Assembly (NCBI GenBank): GCA_943736015.1
Contig: OX031066.1
Location: 7,568,245 to 7,632,244 of the forward strand
Source of the DNA: Tridacna crocea
Lineage: Eukaryota; Mollusca; Bivalvia; Cardiida; Cardiidae
Length of the DNA stretch: 64,000 nt
Reading direction: 5' to 3'
Of this stretch, positions 1-64,000 are shown piece after piece. The position numbers and the translations under genes are program-made. The notes under the pieces were generated by a model, which saw only the letters and a list, made by a program, of their open reading frames with translations, did no database searches and was not told the DNA's origin. Positions within the stretch are counted from its first letter, which is position 1. Each line of letters starts with the position of its first letter.

Positions 1-138
1 CCGTGCGAGTCAAAAGTCAATGTCATGTTTAACCGCTGCACAAAAAAATAAAATTCAGAAGCAACTGGTTGCTGTTGCAGAAACTTTTTCTGATGAAAAA
101 AAAAAAAATCTTGTTTTCGTTTGAAGAATTAAAAAAAT
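1..138 (+). repeat. Partial macrosatellite monomer (3' end only)
   Basis: This is the last 138 bp of a monomer that begins outside the window. It contains the last subrepeat, with GCAAC/GTTGC arms, an AATAAA at 47-52 and the A13 tract before the monomer boundary. Confidence 0.97.
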
Positions 139-211
139 AGGCCATAGAGATACAATAAGATGTAAGAATAACTAATAATCAAAATTTTCTTTGATAGGGT
201 AGAAGACATAT

Positions 212-258
212 TGAGAAAAGGGGAAAATGCTGGTAACCTGCATTGTCTCCTTTTCTCA
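212..258 (+). other. Large stem-loop, one per monomer (monomer 1 copy)
   Basis: Read outside in: TGAGAAAAGGGGA pairs with TCTCCTTTTCTCA (13 positions), then one A/G mismatch, then AATGC with GCATT (5 pairs), closing a 9-nt loop TGGTAACCT. In type 2 monomers the left arm is TGAGAAAAGGAGA, giving 13 perfect Watson-Crick pairs. In type 1 the pair 222/248 is G with T, a wobble in RNA. The element lies at monomer start +73 to +119 in all 35 copies (for example 7580-7626), and the loop is changed only in monomer 21. It could be an RNA hairpin, a DNA cruciform, or a remnant of an inverted-repeat element. The stem is short for a canonical pre-miRNA. Confidence 0.8.
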
Positions 259-316
259 GATTATTTTCCAAAGCCTTCTCTTTTAGGGGTGTTAAAAGGC
301 GTCATTGTATGGTAAG
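246..316 (+). promoter_or_regulatory. Candidate 52-nt exon: splice-acceptor-like and donor-like sites
   Basis: A pyrimidine run ending in CAG (TCTCCTTTTCTCAG, 246-259) has the form of a strong 3' splice site. Branch-point-like ACTAATAA lies upstream near 171. Fifty-two bases later, TG|GTAAGAG at 310-317 resembles a 5' splice site. The enclosed 260-311 segment would be a 52-nt exon. It has an in-frame stop in frame 1, and 52 is not a multiple of three, so chained exons would not code. The acceptor is also the 3' arm of the stem-loop, so pairing could hide it. Splicing is inferred from motif form only. Confidence 0.35.
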
Positions 317-340
317 AGGTCAATAAGGATAAACATATAC

Positions 341-533
341 CCCCCCTCCCAATCATCCAATCAAATCTCATCCCTCTGTGAAATTATTCAATCACAGAAG
401 CTTTTAGGAAATCAGAATGGGTGCCAACAGCCAATCAGAGAGGCTGTGAGAAATTCAAAATTGGGCCCGGCCTGGCAGTCAGAGAGGCTTTGAGAAATCA
501 AAATGGGCCCAGTCAGCCAAACAAAATGGCGCC
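341..533 (+). promoter_or_regulatory. CCAAT-box array ending in a YY1-like site (monomer 1 copy)
   Basis: CCAATCA occurs at 349-355, 357-363 and 431-437 in every copy. A further one at 388-394 exists only in type 2 monomers, because type 1 has TCAATCA. These boxes head degenerate 31-44 bp repeats starting near 357, 388, 431 and 475 and ending in variants of AAAATGGGCCC. A last partial repeat gives AAAATGGCGCC at 523-533, which resembles the YY1 core. Clustered CCAATCA is the classic NF-Y target. Together with the TATA-like box downstream this looks like a Pol II promoter or enhancer on the + strand; activity is inferred. Confidence 0.5.
357..510 (+). repeat. Short degenerate direct repeats (31-44 bp) inside the monomer
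   Basis: Four related blocks start near 357, 388, 431 and 475. The clearest pair is ATCAGAGAGGCTGTGAG (434-450) followed by TTGGGCCC, and GTCAGAGAGGCTTTGAG (478-494) followed by ATGGGCCC. The block at 388 keeps CAATCACAGAAGCTTTTAGG and AATGGGTGCC; the one at 357 is the most diverged. The block at 388 contains the HindIII site AAGCTT at 398-403, the only one I see per monomer. Confidence 0.7.
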
Positions 534-571
534 CTAATATATCAATTGAAAAAACAGTGAACAAAAAACGG

Positions 572-579
572 CATAAAAG
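572..579 (+). promoter_or_regulatory. TATA-like box CATAAAAG
   Basis: CATAAAAG lies about 40 bp after the YY1-like site and 135 bp after the last full CCAAT box, at a plausible distance for a core promoter. It differs by one base from TATAAAAG. The same sequence is present in every monomer except 7, which has the consensus form. Confidence 0.35.
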
Positions 580-601
580 TGGATTTAAAGTCTTTTTTAA
601 A

Positions 602-633
602 GGCTGCTGTGCAGTCCTTGGCAAACTGCCAGG
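602..633 (+). other. Two abutting small hairpins
   Basis: Hairpin one (602-616) pairs GGCTGC with GCAGTC around loop TGT, with one G/T wobble. Hairpin two (617-633) pairs CTTGGCA with TGCCAGG around loop AAC, with one T/G wobble. They touch without a spacer and start 23 bases after the TATA-like box, so they would lie at or near the 5' end of a transcript from it. They are invariant in all copies. Small hairpins of this size also arise by chance. Confidence 0.4.
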
Positions 634-738
634 CTTGCACCATCCACACATGCCAGATTTCACTGAAAAAGGGCCAAAATTCAAGAAAACGAGGTGGCAG
701 AAGACCTTGTTTTGGTCCTTTCAAGCCCCTTGCAAGAG

Positions 739-756
739 TTACTTCCCTTAAAGTAA
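739..756 (+). other. Small stem-loop TTACTT/AAGTAA
   Basis: Perfect 6-bp arms TTACTT and AAGTAA enclose a 6-nt loop CCCTTA, after CTTGCAAG, an 8-bp palindrome at 729-736. Present in every monomer. No function can be assigned. Confidence 0.35.
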
Positions 757-837
757 ACCCTTGATGCCCCCTTTACCCTTCAATTGGATTTCCTGATTCG
801 GGCCACATCAAATTCATATAAGCCAAAATGATCAATG

Positions 838-858
838 TACAGTGTAAAAAAAACTGTA
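838..858 (+). other. Inverted repeat TACAGT/ACTGTA at the unique/subrepeat junction
   Basis: Six-base arms flank a 9-nt A-rich loop. It lies just before the A9-(CA)n tract (859-874) and the first subrepeat, marking the border between the two halves of the monomer. Confidence 0.35.
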
Positions 859-922
859 AAAAAAAACACACACAAACTAATGTGACAAGTTGCTAAAAAA
901 GGGACTGAAAACTCTTTATTTA

Positions 923-940
923 GCAATTGTTTCCTATTGC
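923..940 (+). other. Inverted-repeat anchor GCAAT-N8-ATTGC in the first subrepeat
   Basis: The equivalent site in subrepeats at 1270, 1763 and 1903 is GCAAC-N8-GTTGC. Here both arms have changed so that pairing is kept. In the subrepeats at 1111, 1446 and 1615 the symmetry is lost. Confidence 0.5.
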
Positions 941-1311
941 ATAAATCAAACAAAGGGAACTGAAATGTTACTTTTTCTAATCGCTTCAAACCATGACAAG
1001 AAACCCAGTTACGTTGATTACCACCTCATACGTGCCAATTATGCACATGCGAAAAGCACAGAAAACAATGTGACAAGTGGCTAAAAAAAAGACTGAAAAC
1101 TCTTTCAGTAGGAAGGAATTGCAGCATAATTTTTCTAATATCTTAAAAGCGCAACAAGAAACCCAGTTACGTTGACTACTGTTTCATACGTGCCAGTTAC
1201 GCACATGCAAGAACACCAGAAAATGATGTGACAAGTGGCTAAAAAAAGACATGAAGACTCTTTTCAGTAGCAACTGCTTCCTGTTGCATAAGTCAAACAA
1301 AGAGAACTGAA

Positions 1312-1329
1312 TTTTTTTTTTTTTTTTTT
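1312..1329 (+). repeat. Length-variable T tract (T14-T20)
   Basis: T18 in this copy. Across monomers 1-35 I count 18, 17, 17, 19, 16, 18, 18, 20, 19, 18, 18, 19, 18, 18, 18, 18, 19, 18, 18, 19, 19, 15, 15, 18, 17, 16, 18, 17, 16, 14, 18, 18, 17, 19 and 18. It is the main source of monomer length variation. Confidence 0.9.
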
Positions 1330-1888
1330 CTCCAATCTCTCTATATCGTACGTGACAACAAACCCATTTACGTTGACTACCGTCTCGTAGGTGCCAGTTA
1401 CGTATCCGCGAAAACATGAAAAATCGACTTACGGGACATTTCATAGCAGACGACACCTGTTTCCCAAGTCAAATATAGGGAACTGAATTTCTATTTTTTT
1501 TCCTCCAATCTCTTTATACCGTGACAACAAACCCATTTACGCTGACTACCGTTTGTAGGTGCCAGTTACGTATCCGCTAAAACATGAAAAAATCGACTTA
1601 CGGGACATTTCATAGCAGAAGACACCTGTTTCTCAAGTCAAATATAGGGATTTTTCTTTTTTCGTTTTTTCTCACTAGGACCATTGATTCAGTTGCGATG
1701 ACCATCTCACCCATATGAGACGGTTACGTGCTGCGCATGAAATTGTAAAGACACTTTCGGAGGCAACTGAAACCTGTTGCACAAATCAAAGAAAGGTAAA
1801 TCAAACATTTCCCTGTTTTCATACCAGGGTCAGTTTTGGTGACCGTGCGAGTCAAAAGTCAATGTTATGTTTAACCGCTGCACAAAAA

Positions 1889-1894
1889 AATAAA
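1889..1894 (+). promoter_or_regulatory. Candidate poly(A) signal AATAAA
   Basis: AATAAA lies about 1.3 kb downstream of the TATA-like box on the same strand and is followed within 20-35 nt by GT-rich GGTTGCTGTTG. It is present at 47-52 and in every complete monomer except 24 and 27, where AATAGA replaces it. The surrounding sequence is A-rich, so a chance match is possible. Confidence 0.4.
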
Positions 1895-1980
1895 ATTCAG
1901 AAGCAACTGGTTGCTGTTGCAGAAACTTTTTCAGATGAAAAAAAAAAAAATCTTGTTTTCGTTTGAAGAATTAAAAAAAT

Positions 1981-3821
1981 AGGCCATAGAGATACAATAA
2001 GATGTAAGAATAACTAATAATCAAAATTTTCTTTGATAGGGTAGAAGACATATTGAGAAAAGGGGAAAATGCTGGTAACCTGCATTGTCTCCTTTTCTCA
2101 GATTATTTTCCAAAGCCTTCTCTTTTAGGGGTGTTAAAAGGCGTCATTGTATGGTAAGAGGTCAATAAGGATAAACATATACCCCCCCTCCCAATCATCC
2201 AATCAAATCTCATCCCTCTGTGAAATTATTCAATCACAGAAGCTTTTAGGAAATCAGAATGGGTGCCAACAGCCAATCAGAGAGGCTGTGAGAAATTCAA
2301 AATTGGGCCCGGCCTGGCAGTCAGAGAGGCTTTGAGAAATCAAAATGGGCCCAGTCAGCCAAACAAAATGGCGCCCTAATATATCAATTGAAAAAACAGT
2401 GAACAAAAAACGGCATAAAAGTGGATTTAAAGTCTTTTTTAAAGGCTGCTGTGCAGTCCTTGGCAAACTGCCAGGCTTGCACCATCCACACATGCCAGAT
2501 TTCACTGAAAAAGGGCCAAAATTCAAGAAAACGAGGTGGCAGAAGACCTTGTTTTGGTCCTTTCAAGCCCCTTGCAAGAGTTACTTCCCTTAAAGTAAAC
2601 CCTTGATGCCCCCTTTACCCTTCAATTGGATTTCCTGATTCGGGCCACATCAAATTCATATAAGCCAAAATGATCAATGTACAGTGTAAAAAAAACTGTA
2701 AAAAAAAACACACACAAACTAATGTGACAAGTTGCTAAAAAAGGGACTGAAAACTCTTTATTTAGCAATTGTTTCCTATTGCATAAATCAAACAAAGGGA
2801 ACTGAAATGTTACTTTTTCTAATCGCTTCAAACCATGACAAGAAACCCAGTTACGTTGATTACCACCTCATACGTGCCAATTATGCACATGCGAAAAGCA
2901 CAGAAAACAATGTGACAAGTGGCTAAAAAAAAGACTGAAAACTCTTTCAGTAGGAAGGAATTGCAGCATAATTTTTCTAATATCTTAAAAGCGCAACAAG
3001 AAACCCAGTTACGTTGACTACTGTTTCATACGTGCCAGTTACGCACATGCAAGAACACCAGAAAATGATGTGACAAGTGGCTAAAAAAAGACATGAAGAC
3101 TCTTTTCAGTAGCAACTGCTTCCTGTTGCATAAGTCAAACAAAGAGAACTGAATTTTTTTTTTTTTTTTTCTCCAATCTCTCTATATCGTACGTGACAAC
3201 AAACCCATTTACGTTGACTACCGTCTCGTAGGTGCCAGTTACGTATCCGCGAAAACATGAAAAATCGACTTACGGGACATTTCATAGCAGACGACACCTG
3301 TTTCCCAAGTCAAATATAGGGAACTGAATTTCTATTTTTTTTCCTCCAATCTCTTTATACCGTGACAACAAACCCATTTACGCTGACTACCGTTTGTAGG
3401 TGCCAGTTACGTATCCGCTAAAACATGAAAAAATCGACTTACGGGACATTTCATAGCAGAAGACACCTGTTTCTCAAGTCAAATATAGGGATTTTTCTTT
3501 TTTCGTTTTTTCTCACTAGGACCATTGATTCGGTTGCGATGACCATCTCACCCATATGAGACGGTTACGTGCTGCGCATGAAATTGTAAAGACACTTTCG
3601 GAGGCAACTGAAACCTGTTGCACAAATCAAAGAAAGGTAAATCAAACATTTCCCTGTTTTCATACCAGGGTCAGTTTTGGTGACCGTGCGAGTCAAAAGT
3701 CAATGTCATGTTTAACCGCTGCACAAAAAAATAAAATTCAGAAGCAACTGGTTGCTGTTGCAGAAACTTTTTCTGATGAAAAAAAAAAAAATCTTGTTTT
3801 CGTTTGAAGAATTAAAAAAAT
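1981..3821 (+). repeat. Macrosatellite monomer 2 (1,841 bp, type 1, site E AG)
   Basis: Type 1 at sites a and b, G at c and d, T17. It matches monomer 1 apart from that copy's private changes and one T. Confidence 0.98.
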
Positions 3822-11189: not shown

Positions 11190-13037
11190 AGGCCATAGAG
11201 ATACAATAAGATGTAAGAATAACTAATAATCAAAATTTTCTTTGATAGGGTAGAAGACATTGTGAGAAAAGGAGAAAATGCTGGTAACCTGCATTGTCTC
11301 CTTTTCTCAGATTATTTTCCAAAGCCTTCTCTTTTAGGGGTGTTAAAAGGCGTCATTGTATGGTAAGAGGTCAATAAGGATAAACATATACCCCCCCTCC
11401 CAATCATCCAATCAAATCTCATCCCTCTGTGAAATTATCCAATCACAGAAGCTTTTAGGAAATCAGAATGGGTGCCAACAGCCAATCAGAGAGGCTGTGA
11501 GAAATTCAAAATTGGGCCCGGCCTGGCAGTCAGAGAGGCTTTGAGAAATCAAAATGGGCCCAGTCAGCCAAACAAAATGGCGCCCTAATATATCAATTGA
11601 AAAAACAGTGAACAAAAAACGGTATAAAAGTGGATTTAAAGTCTTTTTTAAAGGCTGCTGTGCAGTCCTTGGCAAACTGCCAGGCTTGCACCATCCACAC
11701 ATGCCAGATTTCACTGAAAAAGGGCCAAAATTCAAGAAAACGAGGTGGCAGAAGACCTTGTTTTGGTCCTTTCAAGCCCCTTGCAAGAGTTACTTCCCTT
11801 AAAGTAAACCCTTGATGCCCCCTTTACCCTTCAATTGGATTTCCTGATTCGGGCCACATCAAATTCATATAAGCCAAAATGATCAATGTACAGTGTAAAA
11901 AAAACTGTAAAAAAAAACACACACAAACTAATGTGACAAGTTGCTAAAAAAGGGACTGAAAACTCTTTATTTAGCAATTGTTTCCTATTGCATAAATCAA
12001 ACAAAGGGAACTGAAATGTTACTTTTTCTAATCGCTTCAAACCATGACAAGAAACCCAGTTACGTTGATTACCACCTCATACGTGCCAATTATGCACATG
12101 CGAAAAGCACAGAAAACAATGTGACAAGTGGCTAAAAAAAAGACTGAAAACTCTTTCAGTAGGAAGGAATTGCAGCATAATTTTTCTAATATCTTAAAAG
12201 CGCAACAAGAAACCCAGTTACGTTGACTACTGTTTCATACGTGCCAGTTACGCACATGCAAGAACACCAGAAAATGATGTGACAAGTGGCTAAAAAAAGA
12301 CATGAAGACTCTTTTCAGTAGCAACTGCTTCCTGTTGCATAAGTCAAACAAAGAGAACTGAATTTTTTTTTTTTTTTTTTCTCCAATCTCTCTATATCGT
12401 ACGTGACAACAAACCCATTTACGTTGACTACCGTCTCGTAGGTGCCAGTTACGTATCCGCGAAAACATGAAAAATCGACTTACGGGACATTTCATAGCAG
12501 ACGACACCTGTTTCCCAAGTCAAATATAGGGAACTGAATTTCTATTTTTTTTCCTCCAATCTCTTTATACCGTGACAACAAACCCATTTACGCTGACTAC
12601 CGTTTGTAGGTGCCAGTTACGTATCCGCTAAAACATGAAAAAATCAAAATCGACTTACGGGACATTTCATAGCAGACGACACCTGTTTCTCAAGTCAAAT
12701 ATAGGGATTTTTCTTTTTTCGTTTTTTCTCACTAGGACCATTGATTCGGTTGCGATGACCATCTCACCCATATGAGACGGTTACGTGCTGCGCATGAAAT
12801 TGTAAAGACACTTTCGGAGGCAACTGAAACCTGTTGCACAAATCAAAGAAAGGTAAATCAAACATTTCCCTGTTTTCATACCAGGGTCAGTTTTGGTGAC
12901 CGTGCGAGTCAAAAGTCAATGTCATGTTTAACCGCTGCACAAAAAAATAAAATTCAGAAGCAACTGGTTGCTGTTGCAGAAACTTTTTCTGATGAAAAAA
13001 AAAAAAATCTTGTTTTCGTTTGAAGAATTAAAAAAAT
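11190..13037 (+). repeat. Macrosatellite monomer 7 (1,848 bp, type 2, longest copy)
   Basis: It is 6 bp longer because AAAATC is duplicated in tandem (12640-12651). It also has the only substitution in the invariant core: a C to T that turns CATAAAAG into TATAAAAG at 11623-11630. T18, site E CG. Confidence 0.98.
11623..11630 (+). promoter_or_regulatory. Consensus TATA box TATAAAAG, monomer 7 only
   Basis: A C to T change unique to this copy makes TATAAAAG. It is the only substitution I detect in the roughly 340-bp core across 35 monomers. Confidence 0.4.
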
Positions 13038-14880
13038 AGGCCATAGAGATACAATAAGATGTAAGAATAACTAATAATCAAAATTTTCTTTGATAGGGTA
13101 GAAGACATTGTGAGAAAAGGAGAAAATGCTGGTAACCTGCATTGTCTCCTTTTCTCAGATTATTTTCCAAAGCCTTCTCTTTTAGGGGTGTTAAAAGGCG
13201 TCATTGTATGGTAAGAGGTCAATAAGGATAAACATATACCCCCCCTCCCAATCATCCAATCAAATCTCATCCCTCTGTGAAATTATCCAATCACAGAAGC
13301 TTTTAGGAAATCAGAATGGGTGCCAACAGCCAATCAGAGAGGCTGTGAGAAATTCAAAATTGGGCCCGGCCTGGCAGTCAGAGAGGCTTTGAGAAATCAA
13401 AATGGGCCCAGTCAGCCAAACAAAATGGCGCCCTAATATATCAATTGAAAAAACAGTGAACAAAAAACGGCATAAAAGTGGATTTAAAGTCTTTTTTAAA
13501 GGCTGCTGTGCAGTCCTTGGCAAACTGCCAGGCTTGCACCATCCACACATGCCAGATTTCACTGAAAAAGGGCCAAAATTCAAGAAAACGAGGTGGCAGA
13601 AGACCTTGTTTTGGTCCTTTCAAGCCCCTTGCAAGAGTTACTTCCCTTAAAGTAAACCCTTGATGCCCCCTTTACCCTTCAATTGGATTTCCTGATTCGG
13701 GCCACATCAAATTCATATAAGCCAAAATGATCAATGTACAGTGTAAAAAAAACTGTAAAAAAAAACACACACAAACTAATGTGACAAGTTGCTAAAAAAG
13801 GGACTGAAAACTCTTTATTTAGCAATTGTTTCCTATTGCATAAATCAAACAAAGGGAACTGAAATGTTACTTTTTCTAATCGCTTCAAACCATGACAAGA
13901 AACCCAGTTACATTGATTACCACCTCATACGTGCCAATTATGCACATGCGAAAAGCACAGAAAACAATGTGACAAGTGGCTAAAAAAAAGACTGAAAACT
14001 CTTTCAGTAGGAAGGAATTGCAGCATAATTTTTCTAATATCTTAAAAGCGCAACAAGAAACCCAGTTACGTTGACTACTGTTTCATACGTGCCAGTTACG
14101 CACATGCAAGAACACCAGAAAATGATGTGACAAGTGGCTAAAAAAAGACATGAAGACTCTTTTCAGTAGCAACTGCTTCCTGTTGCATAAGTCAAACAAA
14201 GAGAACTGAATTTTTTTTTTTTTTTTTTTTCTCCAATCTCTCTATATCGTACGTGACAACAAACCCATTTACGTTGACTACCGTCTCGTAGGTGCCAGTT
14301 ACGTATCCGCGAAAACATGAAAAATCGACTTACGGGACATTTCATAGCAGACGACACCTGTTTCCCAAGTCAAATATAGGGAACTGAATTTCTATTTTTT
14401 TTCCTCCAATCTCTTTATACCGTGACAACAAACCCATTTACGCTGACTACCGTTTGTAGGTGCCAGTTACGTATCCGCTAAAACATGAAAAAATCGACTT
14501 ACGGGACATTTCATAGCAGACAACACCTGTTTCTCAAGTCAAATATAGGGATTTTTCTTTTTTCGTTTTTTCTCACTAGGACCATTGATTCGGTTGCGAT
14601 GACCATCTCACCCATATGAGACGGTTACGTGCTGCGCATGAAATTGTAAAGACACTTTCGGAGGCAACTGAAACCTGTTGCACAAATCAAAGAAAGGTAA
14701 ATCAAACATTTCCCTGTTTTCATACCAGGGTCAGTTTTGGTGACCGTGCGAGTCAAAAGTCAATGTCATGTTTAACCGCTGCACAAAAAAATAAAATTCA
14801 GAAGCAACTGGTTGCTGTTGCAGAAACTTTTTCTGATGAAAAAAAAAAAATCTTGTTTTCGTTTGAAGAATTAAAAAAAT
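13038..14880 (+). repeat. Macrosatellite monomer 8 (1,843 bp, type 2, site E CA)
   Basis: It has the longest T tract (T20), A12, and site E CA shared only with monomer 6. Private A at 13912 (TTACATTGATT). Confidence 0.98.
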
Positions 14881-46189: not shown

Positions 46190-48029
46190 AGGCCATAGAG
46201 ATACAATAAGATGTAAGAATAACTAATAATCAAAATTTTCTTTGATAGGGTAGAAGACATATTGAGAAAAGGGGAAAATGCTGGTAACCTGCATTGTCTC
46301 CTTTTCTCAGATTATTTTCCAAAGCCTTCTCTTTTAGGGGTGTTAAAAGGCGTCATTGTATGGTAAGAGGTCAATAAGGATAAACATATACCCCCCCTCC
46401 CAATCATCCAATCAAATCTCATCCCTCTGTGAAATTATTCAATCACAGAAGCTTTTAGGAAATCAGAATGGGTGCCAACAGCCAATCAGAGAGGCTGTGA
46501 GAAATTCAAAATTGGGCCCGGCCTGGCAGTCAGAGAGGCTTTGAGAAATCAAAATGGGCCCAGTCAGCCAAACAAAATGGCGCCCTAATATATCAATTGA
46601 AAAAACAGTGAACAAAAAACGGCATAAAAGTGGATTTAAAGTCTTTTTTAAAGGCTGCTGTGCAGTCCTTGGCAAACTGCCAGGCTTGCACCATCCACAC
46701 ATGCCAGATTTCACTGAAAAAGGGCCAAAATTCAAGAAAACGAGGTGGCAGAAGACCTTGTTTTGGTCCTTTCAAGCCCCTTGCAAGAGTTACTTCCCTT
46801 AAAGTAAACCCTTGATGCCCCCTTTACCCTTCAATTGGATTTCCTGATTCGGGCCACATCAAATTCATATAAGCCAAAATGATCAATGTACAGTGTAAAA
46901 AAAACTGTAAAAAAAAACACACACAAACTAATGTGACAAGTTGCTAAAAAAGGGACTGAAAACTCTTTATTTAGCAATTGTTTCCTATTGCATAAATCAA
47001 ACAAAGGGAACTGAAATGTTACTTTTTCTAATCGCTTCAAACCATGACAAGAAACCCAGTTACGTTGATTACCACCTCATACGTGCCAATTATGCACATG
47101 CGAAAAGCACAGAAAACAATGTGACAAGTGGCTAAAAAAAAGACTGAAAACTCTTTCAGTAGGAAGGAATTGCAGCATAATTTTTCTAATATCTTAAAAG
47201 CGCAACAAGAAACCCAGTTACGTTGACTACTGTTTCATACGTGCCAGTTACGCACATGCAAGAACACCAGAAAATGATGTGACAAGTGGCTAAAAAAAGA
47301 CATGAAGACTCTTTTCAGTAGCAACTGCTTCCTGTTGCATAAGTCAAACAAAGAGAACTGAATTTTTTTTTTTTTTTTCTCCAATCTCTCTATATCGTAC
47401 GTGACAACAAACCCATTTACGTTGACTACCGTCTCGTAGGTGCCAGTTACGTATCCGCGAAAACATGAAAAATCGACTTACGGGACATTTCATAGCAGAC
47501 GACACCTGTTTCCCAAGTCAAATATAGGGAACTGAATTTCTATTTTTTTTCCTCCAATCTCTTTATACCGTGACAACAAACCCATTTACGCTGACTACCG
47601 TTTGTAGGTGCCAGTTACGTATCCGCTAAAACATGAAAAAATCGACTTACGGGACATTTCATAGCAGACGACACCTGTTTCTCAAGTCAAATATAGGGAT
47701 TTTTCTTTTTTCGTTTTTTCTCACTAGGACCATTGATTCGGTTGCGATGACCATCTCACCCATATGAGACGGTTACGTGCTGCGCATGAAATTGTAAAGA
47801 CACTTTCGGAGGCAACTGAAACCTGTTGCACAAATCAAAGAAAGGTAAATCAAACATTTCCCTGTTTTCATACCAGGGTCAGTTTTGGTGACCGTGCGAG
47901 TCAAAAGTCAATGTCATGTTTAACCGCTGCACAAAAAAATAAAATTCAGAAGCAACTGGTTGCTGTTGCAGAAACTTTTTCTGATGAAAAAAAAAAAAAT
48001 CTTGTTTTCGTTTGAAGAATTAAAAAAAT
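46190..48029 (+). repeat. Macrosatellite monomer 26 (1,840 bp, type 1 start)
   Basis: Type 1 at a and b, c and d G, site E CG, T16. Same allele set as monomer 29. Confidence 0.98.
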
Positions 48030-49870
48030 AGGCCATAGAGATACAATAAGATGTAAGAATAACTAATAATCAAAATTTTCTTTGATAGGGTAGAAGACAT
48101 TGTGAGAAAAGGAGAAAATGCTGGTAACCTGCATTGTCTCCTTTTCTCAGATTATTTTCCAAAGCCTTCTCTTTTAGGGGTGTTAAAAGGCGTCATTGTA
48201 TGGTAAGAGGTCAATAAGGATAAACATATACCCCCCTCCCAATCATCCAATCAAATCTCATCCCTCTGTGAAATTATCCAATCACAGAAGCTTTTAGGAA
48301 ATCAGAATGGGTGCCAACAGCCAATCAGAGAGGCTGTGAGAAATTCAAAATTGGGCCCGGCCTGGCAGTCAGAGAGGCTTTGAGAAATCAAAATGGGCCC
48401 AGTCAGCCAAACAAAATGGCGCCCTAATATATCAATTGAAAAAACAGTGAACAAAAAACGGCATAAAAGTGGATTTAAAGTCTTTTTTAAAGGCTGCTGT
48501 GCAGTCCTTGGCAAACTGCCAGGCTTGCACCATCCACACATGCCAGATTTCACTGAAAAAGGGCCAAAATTCAAGAAAACGAGGTGGCAGAAGACCTTGT
48601 TTTGGTCCTTTCAAGCCCCTTGCAAGAGTTACTTCCCTTAAAGTAAACCCTTGATGCCCCCTTTACCCTTCAATTGGATTTCCTGATTCGGGCCACATCA
48701 AATTCATATAAGCCAAAATGATCAATGTACAGTGTAAAAAAAACTGTAAAAAAAAACACACACAAACTAATGTGACAAGTTGCTAAAAAAGGGACTGAAA
48801 ACTCTTTATTTAGCAATTGTTTCCTATTGCATAAATCAAACAAAGGGAACTGAAATGTTACTTTTTCTAATCGCTTCAAACCATGACAAGAAACCCAGTT
48901 ACGTTGATTACCACCTCATACGTGCCAATTATGCACATGCGAAAAGCACAGAAAACAATGTGACAAGTGGCTAAAAAAAAGACTGAAAACTCTTTCAGTA
49001 GGAAGGAATTGCAGCATAATTTTTCTAATATCTTAAAAGCGCAACAAGAAACCCAGTTACGTTGACTACTGTTTCATACGTGCCAGTTACGCACATGCAA
49101 GAACACCAGAAAATGATGTGACAAGTGGCTAAAAAAAGACATGAAGACTCTTTTCAGTAGCAACTGCTTCCTGTTGCATAAGTCAAACAAAGAGAACTGA
49201 ATTTTTTTTTTTTTTTTTTCTCCAATCTCTCTATATCGTACGTGACAACAAACCCATTTACGTTGACTACCGTCTCGTAGGTGCCAGTTACGTATCCGCG
49301 AAAACATGAAAAATCGACTTACGGGACATTTCATAGCAGACGACACCTGTTTCCCAAGTCAAATATAGGGAACTGAATTTCTATTTTTTTTCCTCCAATC
49401 TCTTTATACCGTGACAACAAACCCATTTACGCTGACTACCGTTTGTAGGTGCCAGTTACGTATCTGCTAAAACATGAAAAAATCGACTTACGGGACATTT
49501 CATAGCAGACGACACCTGTTTCTCAAGTCAAATATAGGGATTTTTCTTTTTTCGTTTTTTCTCACTAGGACCATTGATTCGGTTGCGATGACCATCTCAC
49601 CCATATGAGACGGTTACGTGCTGCGCATGAAATTGTAAAGACACTTTCGGAGGCAACTGAAACCTGTTGCACAAATCAAAGAAAGGTAAATCAAACATTT
49701 CCCTGTTTTCATACCAGGGTCAGTTTTGGTGACCGTGCGAGTCAAAAGTCAATGTCATGTTTAACCGCTGCACAAAAAAATAGAATTCAGAAGCAACTGG
49801 TTGCTGTTGCAGAAACTTTTTCTGATGAAAAAAAAAAAAATCTTGTTTTCGTTTGAAGAATTAAAAAAAT
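48030..49870 (+). repeat. Macrosatellite monomer 27 (1,841 bp, type 2, EcoRI variant)
   Basis: C6 tract (shared only with monomer 30), GTATCTGCT near 49464, and AATAGAATTC with an EcoRI site at 49783-49788. T18. Confidence 0.98.
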
Positions 49871-51711
49871 AGGCCATAGAGATACAATAAGATGTAAGAA
49901 TAACTAATAATCAAAATTTTCTTTGATAGGGTAGAAGACATTGTGAGAAAAGGAGAAAATGCTGGTAACCTGCATTGTCTCCTTTTCTCAGATTATTTTC
50001 CAAAGCCTTCTCTTTTAGGGGTGTTAAAAGGCGTCATTGTATGGTAAGAGGTCAATAAGGATAAACATATACCCCCCCTCCCAATCATCCAATCAAATCT
50101 CATCCCTCTGTGAAATTATCCAATCACAGAAGCTTTTAGGAAATCAGAATGGGTGCCAACAGCCAATCAGAGAGGCTGTGAGAAATTCAAAATTGGGCCC
50201 GGCCTGGCAGTCAGAGAGGCTTTGAGAAATCAAAATGGGCCCAGTCAGCCAAACAAAATGGCGCCCTAATATATCAATTGAAAAAACAGTGAACAAAAAA
50301 CGGCATAAAAGTGGATTTAAAGTCTTTTTTAAAGGCTGCTGTGCAGTCCTTGGCAAACTGCCAGGCTTGCACCATCCACACATGCCAGATTTCACTGAAA
50401 AAGGGCCAAAATTCAAGAAAACGAGGTGGCAGAAGACCTTGTTTTGGTCCTTTCAAGCCCCTTGCAAGAGTTACTTCCCTTAAAGTAAACCCTTGATGCC
50501 CCCTTTACCCTTCAATTGGATTTCCTGATTCGGGCCACATCAAATTCATATAAGCCAAAATGATCAATGTACAGTGTAAAAAAAACTGTAAAAAAAAACA
50601 CACACAAACTAATGTGACAAGTTGCTAAAAAAGGGACTGAAAACTCTTTATTTAGCAATTGTTTCCTATTGCATAAATCAAACAAAGGGAACTGAAATGT
50701 TACTTTTTCTAATCGCTTCAAACCATGACAAGAAACCCAGTTACGTTGATTACCACCTCATACGTGCCAATTATGCACATGCGAAAAGCACAGAAAACAA
50801 TGTGACAAGTGGCTAAAAAAAAGACTGAAAACTCTTTCAGTAGGAAGGAATTGCAGCATAATTTTTCTAATATCTTAAAAGCGCAACAAGAAACCCAGTT
50901 ACGTTGACTACTGTTTCATACGTGCCAGTTACGCACATGCAAGAACACCAGAAAATGATGTGACAAGTGGCTAAAAAAAGACATGAAGACTCTTTTCAGT
51001 AGCAACTGCTTCCTGTTGCATAAGTCAAACAAAGAGAACTGAATTTTTTTTTTTTTTTTTCTCCATTCTCTCTATATCGTACGTGACAACAAACCCATTT
51101 ACGTTGACTACCGTCTCGTAGGTGCCAGTTACGTATCCGCGAAAACATGAAAAATCGACTTACGGGACATTTCATAGCAGACGACACCTGTTTCCCAAGT
51201 CAAATATAGGGAACTGAATTTCTATTTTTTTTCCTCCAATCTCTTTATACCGTGACAACAAACCCATTTACGCTGACTACCGTTTGTAGGTGCCAGTTAC
51301 GTATCCGCTAAAACATGAAAAAATCGACTTACGGGACATTTCATAGCAGAAGACACCTGTTTCTCAAGTCAAATATAGGGATTTTTCTTTTTTCGTTTTT
51401 TCTCACTAGGACCATTGATTCGGTTGCGATGACCATCTCACCCATATGAGACGGTTACGTGCTGCGCATGAAATTGTAAAGACACTTTCGGAGGCAACTG
51501 AAACCTGTTGCACAAATCAAAGAAAGGTAAATCAAACATTTCCCTGTTTTCATACCAGGGTCAGTTTTGGTGACCGTGCGAGTCAAAAGTCAATGTCATG
51601 TTTAACCGCTGCACAAAAAAATAAAATTCAGAAGCAACTGGTTGCTGTTGCAGAAACTTTTTCTGATGAAAAAAAAAAAAATATTGTTTTCGTTTGAAGA
51701 ATTAAAAAAAT
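49871..51711 (+). repeat. Macrosatellite monomer 28 (1,841 bp, type 2 start, site E AG)
   Basis: Site E AG, A at 51683 (AATATTG), T17, private T at 51066 (CTCCATTCTC). Confidence 0.98.
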
Positions 51712-53551
51712 AGGCCATAGAGATACAATAAGATGTAAGAATAACTAATAATCAAAATTTTCTTTGATAGGGTAGAAGACATATTGAGAAAAGGGGAAAA
51801 TGCTGGTAACCTGCATTGTCTCCTTTTCTCAGATTATTTTCCAAAGCCTTCTCTTTTAGGGGTGTTAAAAGGCGTCATTGTATGGTAAGAGGTCAATAAG
51901 GATAAACATATACCCCCCCTCCCAATCATCCAATCAAATCTCATCCCTCTGTGAAATTATTCAATCACAGAAGCTTTTAGGAAATCAGAATGGGTGCCAA
52001 CAGCCAATCAGAGAGGCTGTGAGAAATTCAAAATTGGGCCCGGCCTGGCAGTCAGAGAGGCTTTGAGAAATCAAAATGGGCCCAGTCAGCCAAACAAAAT
52101 GGCGCCCTAATATATCAATTGAAAAAACAGTGAACAAAAAACGGCATAAAAGTGGATTTAAAGTCTTTTTTAAAGGCTGCTGTGCAGTCCTTGGCAAACT
52201 GCCAGGCTTGCACCATCCACACATGCCAGATTTCACTGAAAAAGGGCCAAAATTCAAGAAAACGAGGTGGCAGAAGACCTTGTTTTGGTCCTTTCAAGCC
52301 CCTTGCAAGAGTTACTTCCCTTAAAGTAAACCCTTGATGCCCCCTTTACCCTTCAATTGGATTTCCTGATTCGGGCCACATCAAATTCATATAAGCCAAA
52401 ATGATCAATGTACAGTGTAAAAAAAACTGTAAAAAAAAACACACACAAACTAATGTGACAAGTTGCTAAAAAAGGGACTGAAAACTCTTTATTTAGCAAT
52501 TGTTTCCTATTGCATAAATCAAACAAAGGGAACTGAAATGTTACTTTTTCTAATCGCTTCAAACCATGACAAGAAACCCAGTTACGTTGATTACCACCTC
52601 ATACGTGCCAATTATGCACATGCGAAAAGCACAGAAAACAATGTGACAAGTGGCTAAAAAAAAGACTGAAAACTCTTTCAGTAGGAAGGAATTGCAGCAT
52701 AATTTTTCTAATATCTTAAAAGCGCAACAAGAAACCCAGTTACGTTGACTACTGTTTCATACGTGCCAGTTACGCACATGCAAGAACACCAGAAAATGAT
52801 GTGACAAGTGGCTAAAAAAAGACATGAAGACTCTTTTCAGTAGCAACTGCTTCCTGTTGCATAAGTCAAACAAAGAGAACTGAATTTTTTTTTTTTTTTT
52901 CTCCAATCTCTCTATATCGTACGTGACAACAAACCCATTTACGTTGACTACCGTCTCGTAGGTGCCAGTTACGTATCCGCGAAAACATGAAAAATCGACT
53001 TACGGGACATTTCATAGCAGACGACACCTGTTTCCCAAGTCAAATATAGGGAACTGAATTTCTATTTTTTTTCCTCCAATCTCTTTATACCGTGACAACA
53101 AACCCATTTACGCTGACTACCGTTTGTAGGTGCCAGTTACGTATCCGCTAAAACATGAAAAAATCGACTTACGGGACATTTCATAGCAGACGACACCTGT
53201 TTCTCAAGTCAAATATAGGGATTTTTCTTTTTTCGTTTTTTCTCACTAGGACCATTGATTCGGTTGCGATGACCATCTCACCCATATGAGATGGTTACGT
53301 GCTGCGCATGAAATTGTAAAGACACTTTCGGAGGCAACTGAAACCTGTTGCACAAATCAAAGAAAGGTAAATCAAACATTTCCCTGTTTTCATACCAGGG
53401 TCAGTTTTGGTGACCGTGCGAGTCAAAAGTCAATGTCATGTTTAACCGCTGCACAAAAAAATAAAATTCAGAAGCAACTGGTTGCTGTTGCAGAAACTTT
53501 TTCTGATGAAAAAAAAAAAAATCTTGTTTTCGTTTGAAGAATTAAAAAAAT
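51712..53551 (+). repeat. Macrosatellite monomer 29 (1,840 bp, type 1 start)
   Basis: Type 1 at a and b, T16, site E CG, private T at 53292 (GAGATGGTT). Confidence 0.98.
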
Positions 53552-55388
53552 AGGCCATAGAGATACAATAAGATGTAAGAATAACTAATAATCAAAATTT
53601 TCTTTGATAGGGTAGAAGACATTGTGAGAAAAGGAGAAAATGCTGGTAACCTGCATTGTCTCCTTTTCTCAGATTATTTTCCAAAGCCTTCTCTTTTAGG
53701 GGTGTTAAAAGGCGTCATTGTATGGTAAGAGGTCAATAAGGATAAACATATACCCCCCTCCCAATCATCCAATCAAATCTCATCCCTCTGTGAAATTATC
53801 CAATCACAGAAGCTTTTAGGAAATCAGAATGGGTGCCAACAGCCAATCAGAGAGGCTGTGAGAAATTCAAAATTGGGCCCGGCCTGGCAGTCAGAGAGGC
53901 TTTGAGAAATCAAAATGGGCCCAGTCAGCCAAACAAAATGGCGCCCTAATATATCAATTGAAAAAACAGTGAACAAAAAACGGCATAAAAGTGGATTTAA
54001 AGTCTTTTTTAAAGGCTGCTGTGCAGTCCTTGGCAAACTGCCAGGCTTGCACCATCCACACATGCCAGATTTCACTGAAAAAGGGCCAAAATTCAAGAAA
54101 ACGAGGTGGCAGAAGACCTTGTTTTGGTCCTTTCAAGCCCCTTGCAAGAGTTACTTCCCTTAAAGTAAACCCTTGATGCCCCCTTTACCCTTCAATTGGA
54201 TTTCCTGATTCGGGCCACATCAAATTCATATAAGCCAAAATGATCAATGTACAGTGTAAAAAAAACTGTAAAAAAAAACACACACAAACTAATGTGACAA
54301 GTTGCTAAAAAAGGGACTGAAAACTCTTTATTTAGCAATTGTTTCCTATTGCATAAATCAAACAAAGGGAACTGAAATGTTACTTTTTCTAATCGCTTCA
54401 AACCATGACAAGAAACCCAGTTACGTTGATTACCACCTCATACGTGCCAATTATGCACATGCGAAAAGCACAGAAAACAATGTGACAAGTGGCTAAAAAA
54501 AAGACTGAAAACTCTTTCAGTAGGAAGGAATTGCAGCATAATTTTTCTAATATCTTAAAAGCGCAACAAGAAACCCAGTTACGTTGACTACTGTTTCATA
54601 CGTGCCAGTTACGCACATGCAAGAACACCAGAAAATGATGTGACAAGTGGCTAAAAAAAGACATGAAGACTCTTTTCAGTAGCAACTGCTTCCTGTTGCA
54701 TAAGTCAAACAAAGAGAACTGAATTTTTTTTTTTTTTCTCCAATCTCTCTATATCGTACGTGACAACAAACCCATTTACGTTGACTACCGTCTCGTAGGT
54801 GCCAGTTACGTATCCGCGAAAACATGAAAAATCGACTTACGGGACATTTCATAGCAGACGACACCTGTTTCCCAAGTCAAATATAGGGAACTGAATTTCT
54901 ATTTTTTTTCCTCCAATCTCTTTATACCGTGACAACAAACCCATTTACGCTGACTACCGTTTGTAGGTGCCAGTTACGTATCCGCTAAAACATGAAAAAA
55001 TCGACTTACGGGACATTTCATAGCAGACGACACCTGTTTCTCAAGTCAAATATAGGGATTTTTCTTTTTTCGTTTTTTCTCACTAGGACCATTGATTCGG
55101 TTGCGATGACCATCTCACCCATATGAGACGGTTACGTGCTGCGCATGAAATTGTAAAGACACTTTCGGAGGCAACTGAAACCTGTTGCACAAATCAAAGA
55201 AAGGTAAATCAAACATTTCCCTGTTTTCATACCAGGGTCAGTTTTGGTGACCGTGCGAGTCAAAAGTCAATGTCATGTTTAACCGCTGCACAAAAAAATA
55301 AAATTCAGAAGCAACTGGTTGCTGTTGCAGAAACTTTTTCTGATGAAAAAAAAAAAAATCTTGTTTTCGTTTGAAGAATTAAAAAAAT
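53552..55388 (+). repeat. Macrosatellite monomer 30 (1,837 bp, type 2, shortest copy)
   Basis: C6 tract and the shortest T tract (T14) together explain its length. Other markers are majority type. Confidence 0.98.
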
Positions 55389-59075: not shown

Positions 59076-60916
59076 AGGCCATAGAGATACAATAAGATGT
59101 AAGAATAACTAATAATCAAAATTTTCTTTGATAGGGTAGAAGACATTGTGAGAAAAGGAGAAAATGCTGGTAACCTGCATTGTCTCCTTTTCTCAGATTA
59201 TTTTCCAAAGCCTTCTCTTTTAGGGGTGTTAAAAGGCGTCATTGTATGGTAAGAGGTCAATAAGGATAAACATATACCCCCCCTCCCAATCATCCAATCA
59301 AATCTCATCCCTCTGTGAAATTATCCAATCACAGAAGCTTTTAGGAAATCAGAATGGGTGCCAACAGCCAATCAGAGAGGCTGTGAGAAATTCAAAATTG
59401 GGCCCGGCCTGGCAGTCAGAGAGGCTTTGAGAAATCAAAATGGGCCCAGTCAGCCAAACAAAATGGCGCCCTAATATATCAATTGAAAAAACAGTGAACA
59501 AAAAACGGCATAAAAGTGGATTTAAAGTCTTTTTTAAAGGCTGCTGTGCAGTCCTTGGCAAACTGCCAGGCTTGCACCATCCACACATGCCAGATTTCAC
59601 TGAAAAAGGGCCAAAATTCAAGAAAACGAGGTGGCAGAAGACCTTGTTTTGGTCCTTTCAAGCCCCTTGCAAGAGTTACTTCCCTTAAAGTAAACCCTTG
59701 ATGCCCCCTTTACCCTTCAATTGGATTTCCTGATTCGGGCCACATCAAATTCATATAAGCCAAAATGATCAATGTACAGTGTAAAAAAAACTGTAAAAAA
59801 AAACACACACAAACTAATGTGACAAGTTGCTAAAAAAGGGACTGAAAACTCTTTATTTAGCAATTGTTTCCTATTGCATAAATCAAACAAAGGGAACTGA
59901 AATGTTACTTTTTCTAATCGCTTCAAACCATGACAAGAAACCCAGTTACGTTGATTACCACCTCATACGTGCCAATTATGCACATGCGAAAAGCACAGAA
60001 AACAATGTGACAAGTGGCTAAAAAAAAGACTGAAAACTCTTTCAGTAGGAAGGAATTGCAGCATAATTTTTCTAATATCTTAAAAGCGCAACAAGAAACC
60101 CAGTTACGTTGACTACTGTTTCATACGTGCCAGTTACGCACATGCAAGAACACCAGAAAATGATGTGACAAGTGGCTAAAAAAAGACATGAAGACTCTTT
60201 TCAGTAGCAACTGCTTCCTGTTGCATAAGTCAAACAAAGAGAACTGAATTTTTTTTTTTTTTTTTCTCCAATCTCTCTATATCGTACGTGACAACAAACC
60301 CATTTACGTTGACTACCGTCTCGTAGGTGCCAGTTACGTATCCGCGAAAACATGAAAAATCGACTTACGGGACATTTCATAGCAGACGACACCTGTTTCC
60401 CAAGTCAAATATAGGGAACTGAATTTCTATTTTTTTTCCTCCAATCTCTTTATACCGTGACAACAAACCCATTTACGCTGACTACCGTTTGTAGGTGCCA
60501 GTTACGTATCCGCTAAAACATGAAAAAATCGACTTACGGGACATTTCATAGCAGAAGACACCTGTTTCTCAAGTCAAATATAGGGATTTTTCTTTTTTCG
60601 TTTTTTCTCACTAGGACCATTGATTCGGTTGCGATGACCATCTCACCCATATGAGACGGTTACGTGCTGCGCATGAAATTGTAAAGACACTTTCGGAGGC
60701 AACTGAAACCTGTTGCACAAATCAAAGAAAGGTAAATCAAACATTTCCCTGTTTTCATACCAGGGTCAGTTTTGGTGACCGTGCGAGTCAAAAGTCAATG
60801 TCATGTTTAACCGCTGCACAAAAAAATAAAATTCAGAAGCAACTGGTTGCTGTTGCAGAAACTTTTTCTGATGAAAAAAAAAAAAATCTTGTTTTCGTTT
60901 GAAGAATTAAAAAAAT
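59076..60916 (+). repeat. Macrosatellite monomer 33 (1,841 bp, type 2 start, site E AG)
   Basis: Type 2 start, c and d G, site E AG, T17. Confidence 0.98.
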
Positions 60917-62759
60917 AGGCCATAGAGATACAATAAGATGTAAGAATAACTAATAATCAAAATTTTCTTTGATAGGGTAGAAGACATATTGAGAAAAGGG
61001 GAAAATGCTGGTAACCTGCATTGTCTCCTTTTCTCAGATTATTTTCCAAAGCCTTCTCTTTTAGGGGTGTTAAAAGGCGTCATTGTATGGTAAGAGGTCA
61101 ATAAGGATAAACATATACCCCCCCTCCCAATCATCCAATCAAATCTCATCCCTCTGTGAAATTATTCAATCACAGAAGCTTTTAGGAAATCAGAATGGGT
61201 GCCAACAGCCAATCAGAGAGGCTGTGAGAAATTCAAAATTGGGCCCGGCCTGGCAGTCAGAGAGGCTTTGAGAAATCAAAATGGGCCCAGTCAGCCAAAC
61301 AAAATGGCGCCCTAATATATCAATTGAAAAAACAGTGAACAAAAAACGGCATAAAAGTGGATTTAAAGTCTTTTTTAAAGGCTGCTGTGCAGTCCTTGGC
61401 AAACTGCCAGGCTTGCACCATCCACACATGCCAGATTTCACTGAAAAAGGGCCAAAATTCAAGAAAACGAGGTGGCAGAAGACCTTGTTTTGGTCCTTTC
61501 AAGCCCCTTGCAAGAGTTACTTCCCTTAAAGTAAACCCTTGATGCCCCCTTTACCCTTCAATTGGATTTCCTGATTCGGGCCACATCAAATTCATATAAG
61601 CCAAAATGATCAATGTACAGTGTAAAAAAAACTGTAAAAAAAAACACACACAAACTAATGTGACAAGTTGCTAAAAAAGGGACTGAAAACTCTTTATTTA
61701 GCAATTGTTTCCTATTGCATAAATCAAACAAAGGGAACTGAAATGTTACTTTTTCTAATCACTTCAAACCATGACAAGAAACCCAGTTACGTTGATTACC
61801 ACCTTATACGTGCCAATTATGCACATGCCAAAAGCACAGAAAACAATGTGACAAGTGGCTAAAAAAAAGACTGAAAACTCTTTCAGTAGGAAGGAATTGC
61901 AGCATAATTTTTCTAATATCTTAAAAGCGCAACAAGAAACCCAGTTACGTTGACTACTGTTTCATACGTGCCAGTTACGCACATGCAAGAACACCAGAAA
62001 ATGATGTGACAAGTGGCTAAAAAAAGACATGAAGACTCTTTTCAGTAGCAACTGCTTCCTGTTGCATAAGTCAAACAAAGAGAACTGAATTTTTTTTTTT
62101 TTTTTTTTCTCCAATCTCTCTATATCGTACGTGACAACAAACCCATTTACGTTGACTACCGTCTCGTAGGTGCCAGTTACGTATCCGCGAAAACATGAAA
62201 AATCGACTTACGGGACATTTCATAGCAGACGACACCTGTTTCCCAAGTCAAATATAGGGAACTGAATTTCTATTTTTTTTCCTCCAATCTCTTTATACCG
62301 TGACAACAAACCCATTTACGCTGACTACCGTTTGTAGGTGCCAGTTACGTATCCGCTAAAACATGAAAAAATCGACTTACGGGACATTTCATAGCAGACG
62401 ACACCTGTTTCTCAAGTCAAATATAGGGATTTTTCTTTTTTCGTTTTTTCTCACTAGGACCATTGATTCGGTTGCGATGACCATCTCACCCATATGAGAC
62501 GGTTACGTGCTGCGCATGAAATTGTAAAGACACTTTCGGAGGCAACTGAAACCTGTTGCACAAATCAAAGAAAGGTAAATCAAACATTTCCCTGTTTTCA
62601 TACCAGGGTCAGTTTTGGTGACCGTGCGAGTCAAAAGTCAATGTCATGTTTAACCGCTGCACAAAAAAATAAAATTCAGAAGCAACTGGTTGCTGTTGCA
62701 GAAACTTTTTCTGATGAAAAAAAAAAAAATCTTGTTTTCGTTTGAAGAATTAAAAAAAT
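60917..62759 (+). repeat. Macrosatellite monomer 34 (1,843 bp, type 1 start, A/C at c/d)
   Basis: Type 1 at a and b, A and C at sites c and d as in monomer 4, private T at 61805 (ACCTTATACG), T19, site E CG. Confidence 0.98.
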
Positions 62760-64000
62760 AGGCCATAGAGATACAATAAGATGTAAGAATAACTAATAAT
62801 CAAAATTTTCTTTGATAGGGTAGAAGACATTGTGAGAAAAGGAGAAAATGCTGGTAACCTGCATTGTCTCCTTTTCTCAGATTATTTTCCAAAGCCTTCT
62901 CTTTTAGGGGTGTTAAAAGGCGTCATTGTATGGTAAGAGGTCAATAAGGATAAACATATACCCCCCCTCCCAATCATCCAATCAAATCTCATCCCTCTGT
63001 GAAATTATCCAATCACAGAAGCTTTTAGGAAATCAGAATGGGTGCCAACAGCCAATCAGAGAGGCTGTGAGAAATTCAAAATTGGGCCCGGCCTGGCAGT
63101 CAGAGAGGCTTTGAGAAATCAAAATGGGCCCAGTCAGCCAAACAAAATGGCGCCCTAATATATCAATTGAAAAAACAGTGAACAAAAAACGGCATAAAAG
63201 TGGATTTAAAGTCTTTTTTAAAGGCTGCTGTGCAGTCCTTGGCAAACTGCCAGGCTTGCACCATCCACACATGCCAGATTTCACTGAAAAAGGGCCAAAA
63301 TTCAAGAAAACGAGGTGGCAGAAGACCTTGTTTTGGTCCTTTCAAGCCCCTTGCAAGAGTTACTTCCCTTAAAGTAAACCCTTGATGCCCCCTTTACCCT
63401 TCAATTGGATTTCCTGATTCGGGCCACATCAAATTCATATAAGCCAAAATGATCAATGTACAGTGTAAAAAAAACTGTAAAAAAAAACACACACAAACTA
63501 ATGTGACAAGTTGCTAAAAAAGGGACTGAAAACTCTTTATTTAGCAATTGTTTCCTATTGCATAAATCAAACAAAGGGAACTGAAATGTTACTTTTTCTA
63601 ATCGCTTCAAACCATGACAAGAAACCCAGTTACGTTGATTACCACCTCATACGTGCCAATTATGCACATGCGAAAAGCACAGAAAACAATGTGACAAGTG
63701 GCTAAAAAAAAGACTGAAAACTCTTTCAGTAGGAAGGAATTGCAGCATAATTTTTCTAATATCTTAAAAGCGCAACAAGAAACCCAGTTACGTTGACTAC
63801 TGTTTCATACGTGCCAGTTACGCACATGCAAGAACACCAGAAAATGATGTGACAAGTGGCTAAAAAAAGACATGAAGACTCTTTTCAGTAGCAACTGCTT
63901 CCTGTTGCATAAGTCAAATAAAGAGAACTGAATTTTTTTTTTTTTTTTTTCTCCAATCTCTCTATATCGTACGTGACGACAAACCCATTTACGTTGACTA
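62760..64000 (+). repeat. Partial macrosatellite monomer 35 (first 1,241 bp)
   Basis: Type 2 at a and b, c and d G, T18. Private T at 63919, which creates an extra AATAAA at 63917-63922, and private G at 63978. The window ends inside the third to fourth subrepeat. Confidence 0.98.

Follow-up and report, generated by a model that had tools for sequence, protein, structure and literature searches.

The stretch of Tridacna crocea DNA analysed here, 64,000 nucleotides long and called the window throughout (C11:7,568,245-7,632,244, in an assembly of 1,048,827,098 bases and 31 contigs that carry C numbers in this text), consists from end to end of head-to-tail copies of a single 1,842-bp unit, all in one orientation. 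HindIII cuts once per unit; its 35 sites in the window are spaced 1,838-1,848 bp apart and set the phase of 34 complete units of that length, with two partial ones besides. Aligned over 1,854 columns, the 34 complete units (consensus 1,842 bp) show 33 substitution columns and 19 indel columns, and pairs of units are on average 5.3 and at most 12 substitutions apart. The indel columns comprise three homopolymer tracts (T, A, and C), a 6-bp insertion found in unit 7, single changes in an A/CA tract, and a 1-bp insertion that adjoins an A-to-T change in units 6, 31, and 32. A first-pass annotation, made from the letters of the window, had described 35 phased copies in one orientation, with length differences due to three homopolymers, a 6-bp duplication, two 1-bp changes in units 6, 31, and 32, and small changes in the A/CA tract; the alignment bears out both descriptions, bar minor wording in the second. 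Consensus coordinates below equal the window position minus 397 (HindIII phase, unit 1).

1..64000, plus strand: part of a satellite array, 34 complete units and two partial ones; the whole array measures 418 kb
398..2239, plus strand: unit 1, complete, in HindIII phase (HindIII sites, alignment of units)
11449..13296, plus strand: unit 7, 1,848 bp, with its private 6-bp insertion (HindIII spacing, unit alignment)

Results

The array and its family

The array carries on beyond the window on both sides, as the annotation had supposed, and occupies C11:7,304,957-7,723,087, about 222 units by division. We read C11:7,558,245-7,642,244 (window included) and C11:7,658,245-7,734,000 continuously; the remainder was sampled, rather than seen unit by unit, at the left edge (C11:7,292,001-7,312,000) and at points 7.33, 7.35, 7.37, 7.47, and 7.53 Mb. 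Towards the right edge, units diverge further (95-98% in BLAST) and carry deletions. The annotation's statement that the array holds no insertion stands inside the window and fails outside it, where we find a 9.37-kb long terminal repeat (LTR) element, a small inverted piece, and these deletions towards the right edge. The inverted piece is 459 bp of a unit (consensus 609-1069) at C11:7,666,880-7,667,338 (stretch L021:4636-5094). At the other end, a 52-bp diverged copy of consensus 278-329 (82.7%, E=4.5e-09) lies at C11:7,304,895-7,304,946 (L042:2895-2946), ~10 bp outside the array, whose first base corresponds to consensus 1780; this copy may be what is left of a shorter ancestral unit.

The search of the source assembly that the annotation had recommended places the array within a large family. 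A unit 24-mer, with up to 3 mismatches, has 1,183 + 3,058 = 4,241 matches genome-wide, and its reversed-pattern control has 0; at 1.85 kb per unit this amounts to ~7.8 Mb, or 0.75% of the assembly. A second unit 24-mer has 757 + 1,606 = 2,363 exact matches (control 0). Further arrays occur on C11 at nine sampled places (0.95, 1.0, 1.15, 1.3, 1.45, 2.0, 4.85, 5.0, and 5.15 Mb), nine of nine oriented opposite to the window's array, and none was met in 30 other C11 samples below the window's array or in 14 above it (7.73 to 57.8 Mb). On C6, arrays on the minus strand were met between 11.087 Mb (a listed match) and a probe at 11.7 Mb, and arrays on the plus strand between 52.18 Mb and 52.374 Mb; C6 probes at 11.0, 12.0, 12.4, 52.1, 52.6, 52.9, 53.1, and 53.3 Mb held no array. 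Among the matches listed, whose order runs from C1 up, the first exact 24-mer lies on C6 and none lies on C1-C5; the distribution drawn from them stops short of C7-C10 and C12-C18. Probes of 300 bases, one place each on C1, C2, C3, C10, C12, C14, C16, C18, and three small contigs, also held no array. Large contigs seem to number 18, from C1 (77 Mb) down to C18 (40 Mb), with C19 at only 57 kb, judging from 13 contigs.

Long head-to-tail arrays of a non-coding unit are what complex, long-unit satellite DNA consists of, and this array is satellite DNA of that kind. Reading the window as a long-unit tandem array with no recognisable gene is right, and the unit exceeds 1 kb. The annotation's label macrosatellite, in its narrow sense of one or two loci that often bear genes, fits worse than complex satellite DNA, because of the 4,241 matches and because two chromosomes or more carry arrays, at several sites.

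Two observations concern the assembly itself. C11:1-6000 (L017) is N-only and stretch L032 contains 756 N. The 29-kb contig C31, read at 25,016-29,009 (L073), has a COX1 readable under the invertebrate mitochondrial code; it is probably mitochondrial and, for an animal, unusually large.

A composite unit with a relic of a dispersed element

The unit is composite: ~147 bp are a relic of a miniature inverted-repeat transposable element (MITE), ~1,056 bp are seven degenerate subrepeats, and the remainder is unmatched.

869..1924, plus strand: seven degenerate subrepeats (consensus 472-1527), four near-complete (153-187 bp) and three partial (49-116 bp); iterated nhmmer, E 3.5e-05 to 1.7e-54, TRF, and repeat finding
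2016..2162, plus strand: MITE relic including the 3' terminal repeat (consensus 1619-1765); positions 78-224 of the 226 of the MITE model, E=9.5e-36
2051..2104, plus strand: hairpin inside the MITE relic, source of a sub-threshold mir-31 match; fold z = -5.4, Rfam 27.1 bits
2191..2384, plus strand: CCAATCA cluster and short repeats (D7 family) spaced 43-44 bp, in the unmatched part; motif shuffle and repeat finding

The annotation had called the unit unrecognised, which holds only in part. Consensus 1619-1765 belongs to a family of 226-bp MITEs. Matches to this element at E<0.001 number 183 and are spread over 31 of the 51 background (non-array) stretches sampled; the sample is not random, being mostly from C11 and partly from near the array. 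Merged at E<1e-5, the matches form 90 stretches that cover 16,686 of 134,285 bases, or 12.4% of this background, a density of ~670 stretches per Mb of the same non-random sample. If the sampled background is typical, the MITE is among the genome's most abundant elements. TTAA stands at both ends of 17 among 33 full-length copies and at a single end of 11, and 5 lack it at either end; one filled and several empty TTAA target sites were also seen; because of these ends and sites, we identify the dispersed element as a TTAA-type palindromic MITE. It combines a TTAA target duplication with terminal inverted repeats, as piggyBac-like MITEs do, and from the TTAA site we presume that this label applies. 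The hairpin and its mir-31 match arise because the MITE has a central palindrome. A mir-31 gene was rejected: the match reaches 27.1 bits against a gathering score of 51 (E=0.0087), and the MITE hairpin accounts for it. By eye, an acceptor-like CCTTCTCTTTTAG and a donor-like GTAAGAG stand either side of 25 bp in the 3' part of the relic (window 2116-2160); this splice-like pair is probably due to chance.

Beyond the arrays, all matches of the whole consensus to the sampled background at E<0.001 fall in the MITE part. For the subrepeat model, the best background match (E 4.5) does not surpass that of the reversed control (E 0.66), and a more sensitive search with the unmatched part returned, among the matches listed, only the 52-bp left-flank piece as convincing against the reversed control. 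Dyads of the form GCAAC-N8-GTTGC recur in the subrepeats (window 869-1924; also in L013, L018, L048, and L061), and one copy, GCAAT-N8-ATTGC, has a paired change. Their number was reached in 0 of 500 shuffles, but the dyad copies are homologous and not independent; the lineage at C11:2.0 Mb retains fewer of them. In the unmatched part, CCAATCA occurs 4 times on the consensus plus strand against 0.37 expected, and type-A units (such as unit 1) have lost one of the four.

Searches for genes, RNAs, and described relatives

A coding unit was rejected: the longest stop-free run, 102 codons, is equalled by 55% of shuffles (p=0.55), and Pfam returned nothing over its cut-off in the 8 of 52 listed frames that were scanned (best E=0.01), and no transposase-like frame. 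An array of ribosomal DNA spacers or small-RNA genes, which would carry rRNA, snRNA, 5S, or tRNA in its unit, was rejected as well, since Rfam, run on window 1-6000 at E up to 5, gave no match near a gathering score (the best about half of it) and ARAGORN found 0 transfer RNAs (tRNAs) in the window. The unit has no match in plasmids and phages, nor in GTDB and viral contigs, for which two exact patterns each were used. Six unit strings of 17 to 21 bases are absent from the paper full texts searched, and none of 25 papers listed contained the term 1842 bp.

Insertions carried by the arrays

The sister array at C6:52.18 Mb holds units that bear transposable elements beside units that do not. Among its first 24 listed spacings, five measure ~2,222 bp and three ~2,448 bp, next to units of ~1,847 bp. 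Six long units were read, five of the shorter kind (in L074 and L095-L098) and one of the longer (L099), and all six share a 364-bp insert that is 100% identical between them, occupies one and the same site (consensus 1236-1249), and has the same 12- to 14-bp target duplication; this site is empty in two other units of the array that were read across (in L074 and L102). The 3' end of the insert, with up to 3 mismatches, has 896 + 830 = 1,726 matches in the genome (control 0), and the insert is therefore a dispersed element. From its ATTC-type simple-repeat tail and its target duplication, it is probably a retroposon. In L099 there is, in addition, a complete 226-bp MITE (E=8.6e-67) at a TTAA within the old MITE relic, and this TTAA is empty in both L074 units and in L102. 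A single insertion event followed by co-amplification through exchange is the simplest account.

The window's array itself holds, as far as it was read, one LTR retrotransposon of 9.37 kb (C11:7,683,963-7,693,330; L023:1719-10000 and L024:1-1086). It is flanked by a 5-bp target duplication, and its end repeats are identical at 228 of 229 positions. The element is of Ty3/Gypsy type, with its frames on the strand opposite to the units and Pfam matches to gag, protease, reverse transcriptase, RNase H, integrase, and a PHD finger at the end of pol. It also has an additional frame with a TatD DNase domain. Among the eight papers listed by a literature search, none describes TatD in such an element, and searches on a Gypsy element with TatD and PHD and on composite satellite DNA gave no direct match, which is not proof of absence from print. 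Across the six lineages that we aligned, one element type, the MITE, is recognised in the units of all; the retroposon is additional in one array.

Homogeneity within and between arrays

Unit types are interspersed along the window, and two pairs of units are identical.

42767..53809, plus strand: recent tandem duplication of a three-unit block (units 24-26 and 27-29; units 24 and 27 identical); near-identical run of 4 at lag 3, shuffle p=0.004
18825..26193, plus strand: units 11 and 14, identical and three units apart (unit comparison)

A run of 4 is the longest near-identical run at any one lag, and 0.4% of shuffles reach it. Between arrays, we compared identities over substitutions only, with unit 13 of the window as reference. 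Within its own array, unit 13 is 99.84% identical to units at 7.37 Mb, 99.40% at the left end, 99.1-99.3% at 7.70-7.71 Mb, and 97-98% at the right edge. Outside it, the values are 98.97% for the array at C11:5.0 Mb, 95.5% for those at C11:1.0 and 1.3 Mb, 94.7% at C6:11.2 Mb, and 93.6% at C11:2.0 Mb. Because identities are higher within the array than to most other arrays, homogenisation acts mainly within arrays and less strongly at the edge, and the C11:5.0 Mb array is close to the window's. Units more alike within than between arrays are the mark of concerted evolution, and this pattern is found here, with the exception of the right edge versus the C11:5.0 Mb array.

A mutational signature at CpG sites

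Among the units of the window, minority C-to-T or G-to-A changes affect 9 of 88 CpG positions versus 7 of 620 other C or G positions (Fisher p=2.6e-5), and 1 of 127 GpC control positions. Likewise, between the six lineages 67 of 148 CpG columns are variable versus 169 of 1,694 other columns. Because of both, we infer from the mutation spectrum that the CpGs are methylated in the germline, deamination of methylated CpG being the expected cause. CpG observed/expected ratios in 40 background pieces run from 0.15 to 1.07, a spread as in animals with patchy methylation. No region of the unit, of 13 compared between lineages, shows significant constraint (lowest p 0.078, consensus 930-1100), and functional constraint on the unmatched part was dropped as a candidate.

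Discussion

What kind of sequence is this, and how might it be maintained? We hold it to be very probable that the window belongs to a non-coding satellite array within a multi-array family of ~4,241 copies, homogenised mainly within arrays, composite in its unit, and methylated at CpGs in the germline. The array is thus an ordinary kind of sequence, satellite DNA, here confirmed and extended. We propose that unequal exchange or conversion, mainly within each array, keeps the units uniform. A transposon inserting into one unit would then be copied through the array with the altered unit and so yield more complex units, and the MITE now in every unit may have arrived by the same insert-and-spread route. 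The arrays may be heterochromatic, the only mark seen being the excess of CpG transitions. We infer no sequence-specific job for the unit.

Several observations sit less easily with this interpretation. A window unit has a closer counterpart in the C11:5.0 Mb array than at the right edge of the array to which it belongs. Relative to shuffles, units are on average least distant at lag 3, although this is not significant after lag correction (0.10 with indels, 0.26 without), and a fixed higher-order repeat of period 3 was dropped for that reason. The second MITE comes from a single unit, the one read of three 2,448-bp units. The subrepeat block is more substituted than the rest (25/1,056 versus 8/786, p=0.033; p=0.41 without CpG transitions), and region 1-140 is among the least variable (6.7% versus 10.0%, not significant at p=0.13). 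Finally, the CCAATCA cluster is above chance (shuffle p=0.002), is kept at four or more copies in six of six lineages, and could hint at a promoter.

That cluster speaks for a transcribed array of non-coding RNA units with a CCAAT-box promoter, comparable to macrosatellites such as DXZ4, as does one AAAATGGCG per unit, presumably YY1-like, although this motif is not above chance (p=0.10). We nevertheless regard such an array as very unlikely: the Rfam, tRNA, and open reading frame searches returned nothing over their thresholds or beyond chance, no region is significantly constrained, and all CCAAT boxes taken together give p=0.10. Centromeres often hold long, homogeneous arrays built of large units, and a centromeric satellite, whose unit would mark functional centromeres, would agree with this general knowledge. 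It has little probability in our estimate, since the C6 arrays stand at two places 41 Mb apart (11.09 and 52.18 Mb), C11 has several sites between 0.95 and 7.7 Mb, and the matches listed, with none on C1-C5, do not describe one site on each of all chromosomes. A centromere protein box was likewise dropped, with 70 CENP-B-box-like sites found and 86.7 expected, a number not above chance.

Could the whole 1.84-kb unit instead be a transposon multiplied head to tail? One part of it is a MITE, and its subrepeats followed by a unique part are reminiscent of some Helitron-type elements. However, only the MITE part is dispersed in the sampled background, the subrepeats and the unmatched part gave the results described above against their reversed controls, and the scanned frames include nothing like a transposase; a tandemised mobile element is accordingly hard to credit. 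An assembly artefact inflating a short array could account for two pairs of identical units, but the 33 substitution columns, the non-repeating unit order, the private variants, and the divergence at the edge are unlike a looped assembly, and other arrays of the family exist, so that we think an artefact extremely unlikely. A further idea goes beyond satellite turnover: the arrays could act as a transposon trap, in which elements landing in one unit are multiplied by array turnover, transcripts across the arrays could feed small-RNA silencing of those elements, and the MITE palindrome could stimulate exchange between units. We offer this as an improbable speculation, under which array turnover would account for the sequence now in each unit from a MITE family that fills about one eighth of the sampled background.

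Returning to the composite satellite that we favour, this family bears on the route to long, composite satellite units, since a single genome offers stages side by side: the MITE relic in all six aligned lineages, the retroposon in part of one array, the second MITE in one of the units read, and the LTR element once in what was read of the window's array. Such a set makes the insert-and-spread route measurable with long reads. In addition, the CpG spectrum allows germline methylation to be predicted from mutations in a genome so far unstudied.

How does the family compare with known systems? The primate macrosatellites DXZ4, D4Z4, and RNU2 have kilobase units, occupy one locus or a few, and contain genes or serve a defined function. 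The present arrays resemble them in being long and built of kilobase units (1,842 bp, above 1 kb). They differ in having thousands of copies at several sites on C6 and C11, rather than at one or two loci, and in that no gene was found.

Among invertebrates, SSUsat of Spisula subtruncata is abundant, lies at intercalary sites, and shows raised cytosine methylation (PMC5537241). The likeness, an abundant invertebrate satellite with methylation, is drawn from descriptions, and methylation was measured there, whereas here it is deduced from mutations (PMC5537241). Similarly, the long-monomer oyster satellite DNAs have units of up to 8,637 bp, and most of those in C. angulata are similar to known repeats; the likeness lies in the long units and again is drawn from descriptions (PMC11136912).

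Closest in make-up are satellites that involve mobile elements. Xstir and miDNA4 of Xenopus are MITE-linked, with the repeats lying inside the MITE or derived from its interior (PMC12628747). There, as here, a MITE is physically joined to a tandem array; unlike there, the MITE relic here makes up ~8% of a much longer unit. The composite satellite hypothesis, from the same source, holds that already shuffled transposon remnants become tandem (PMC12628747). Our unit is similar in combining part of a transposable element with other sequence. It departs from that proposal in that a retroposon entered an existing unit and spread in one sister array. Composite satellites contain stretches of several different elements; here only the MITE was recognised in the units of all six aligned lineages, with a retroposon added in one array. 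The stages observed in T. crocea fit the composite-satellite idea and add examples to it (PMC12628747).

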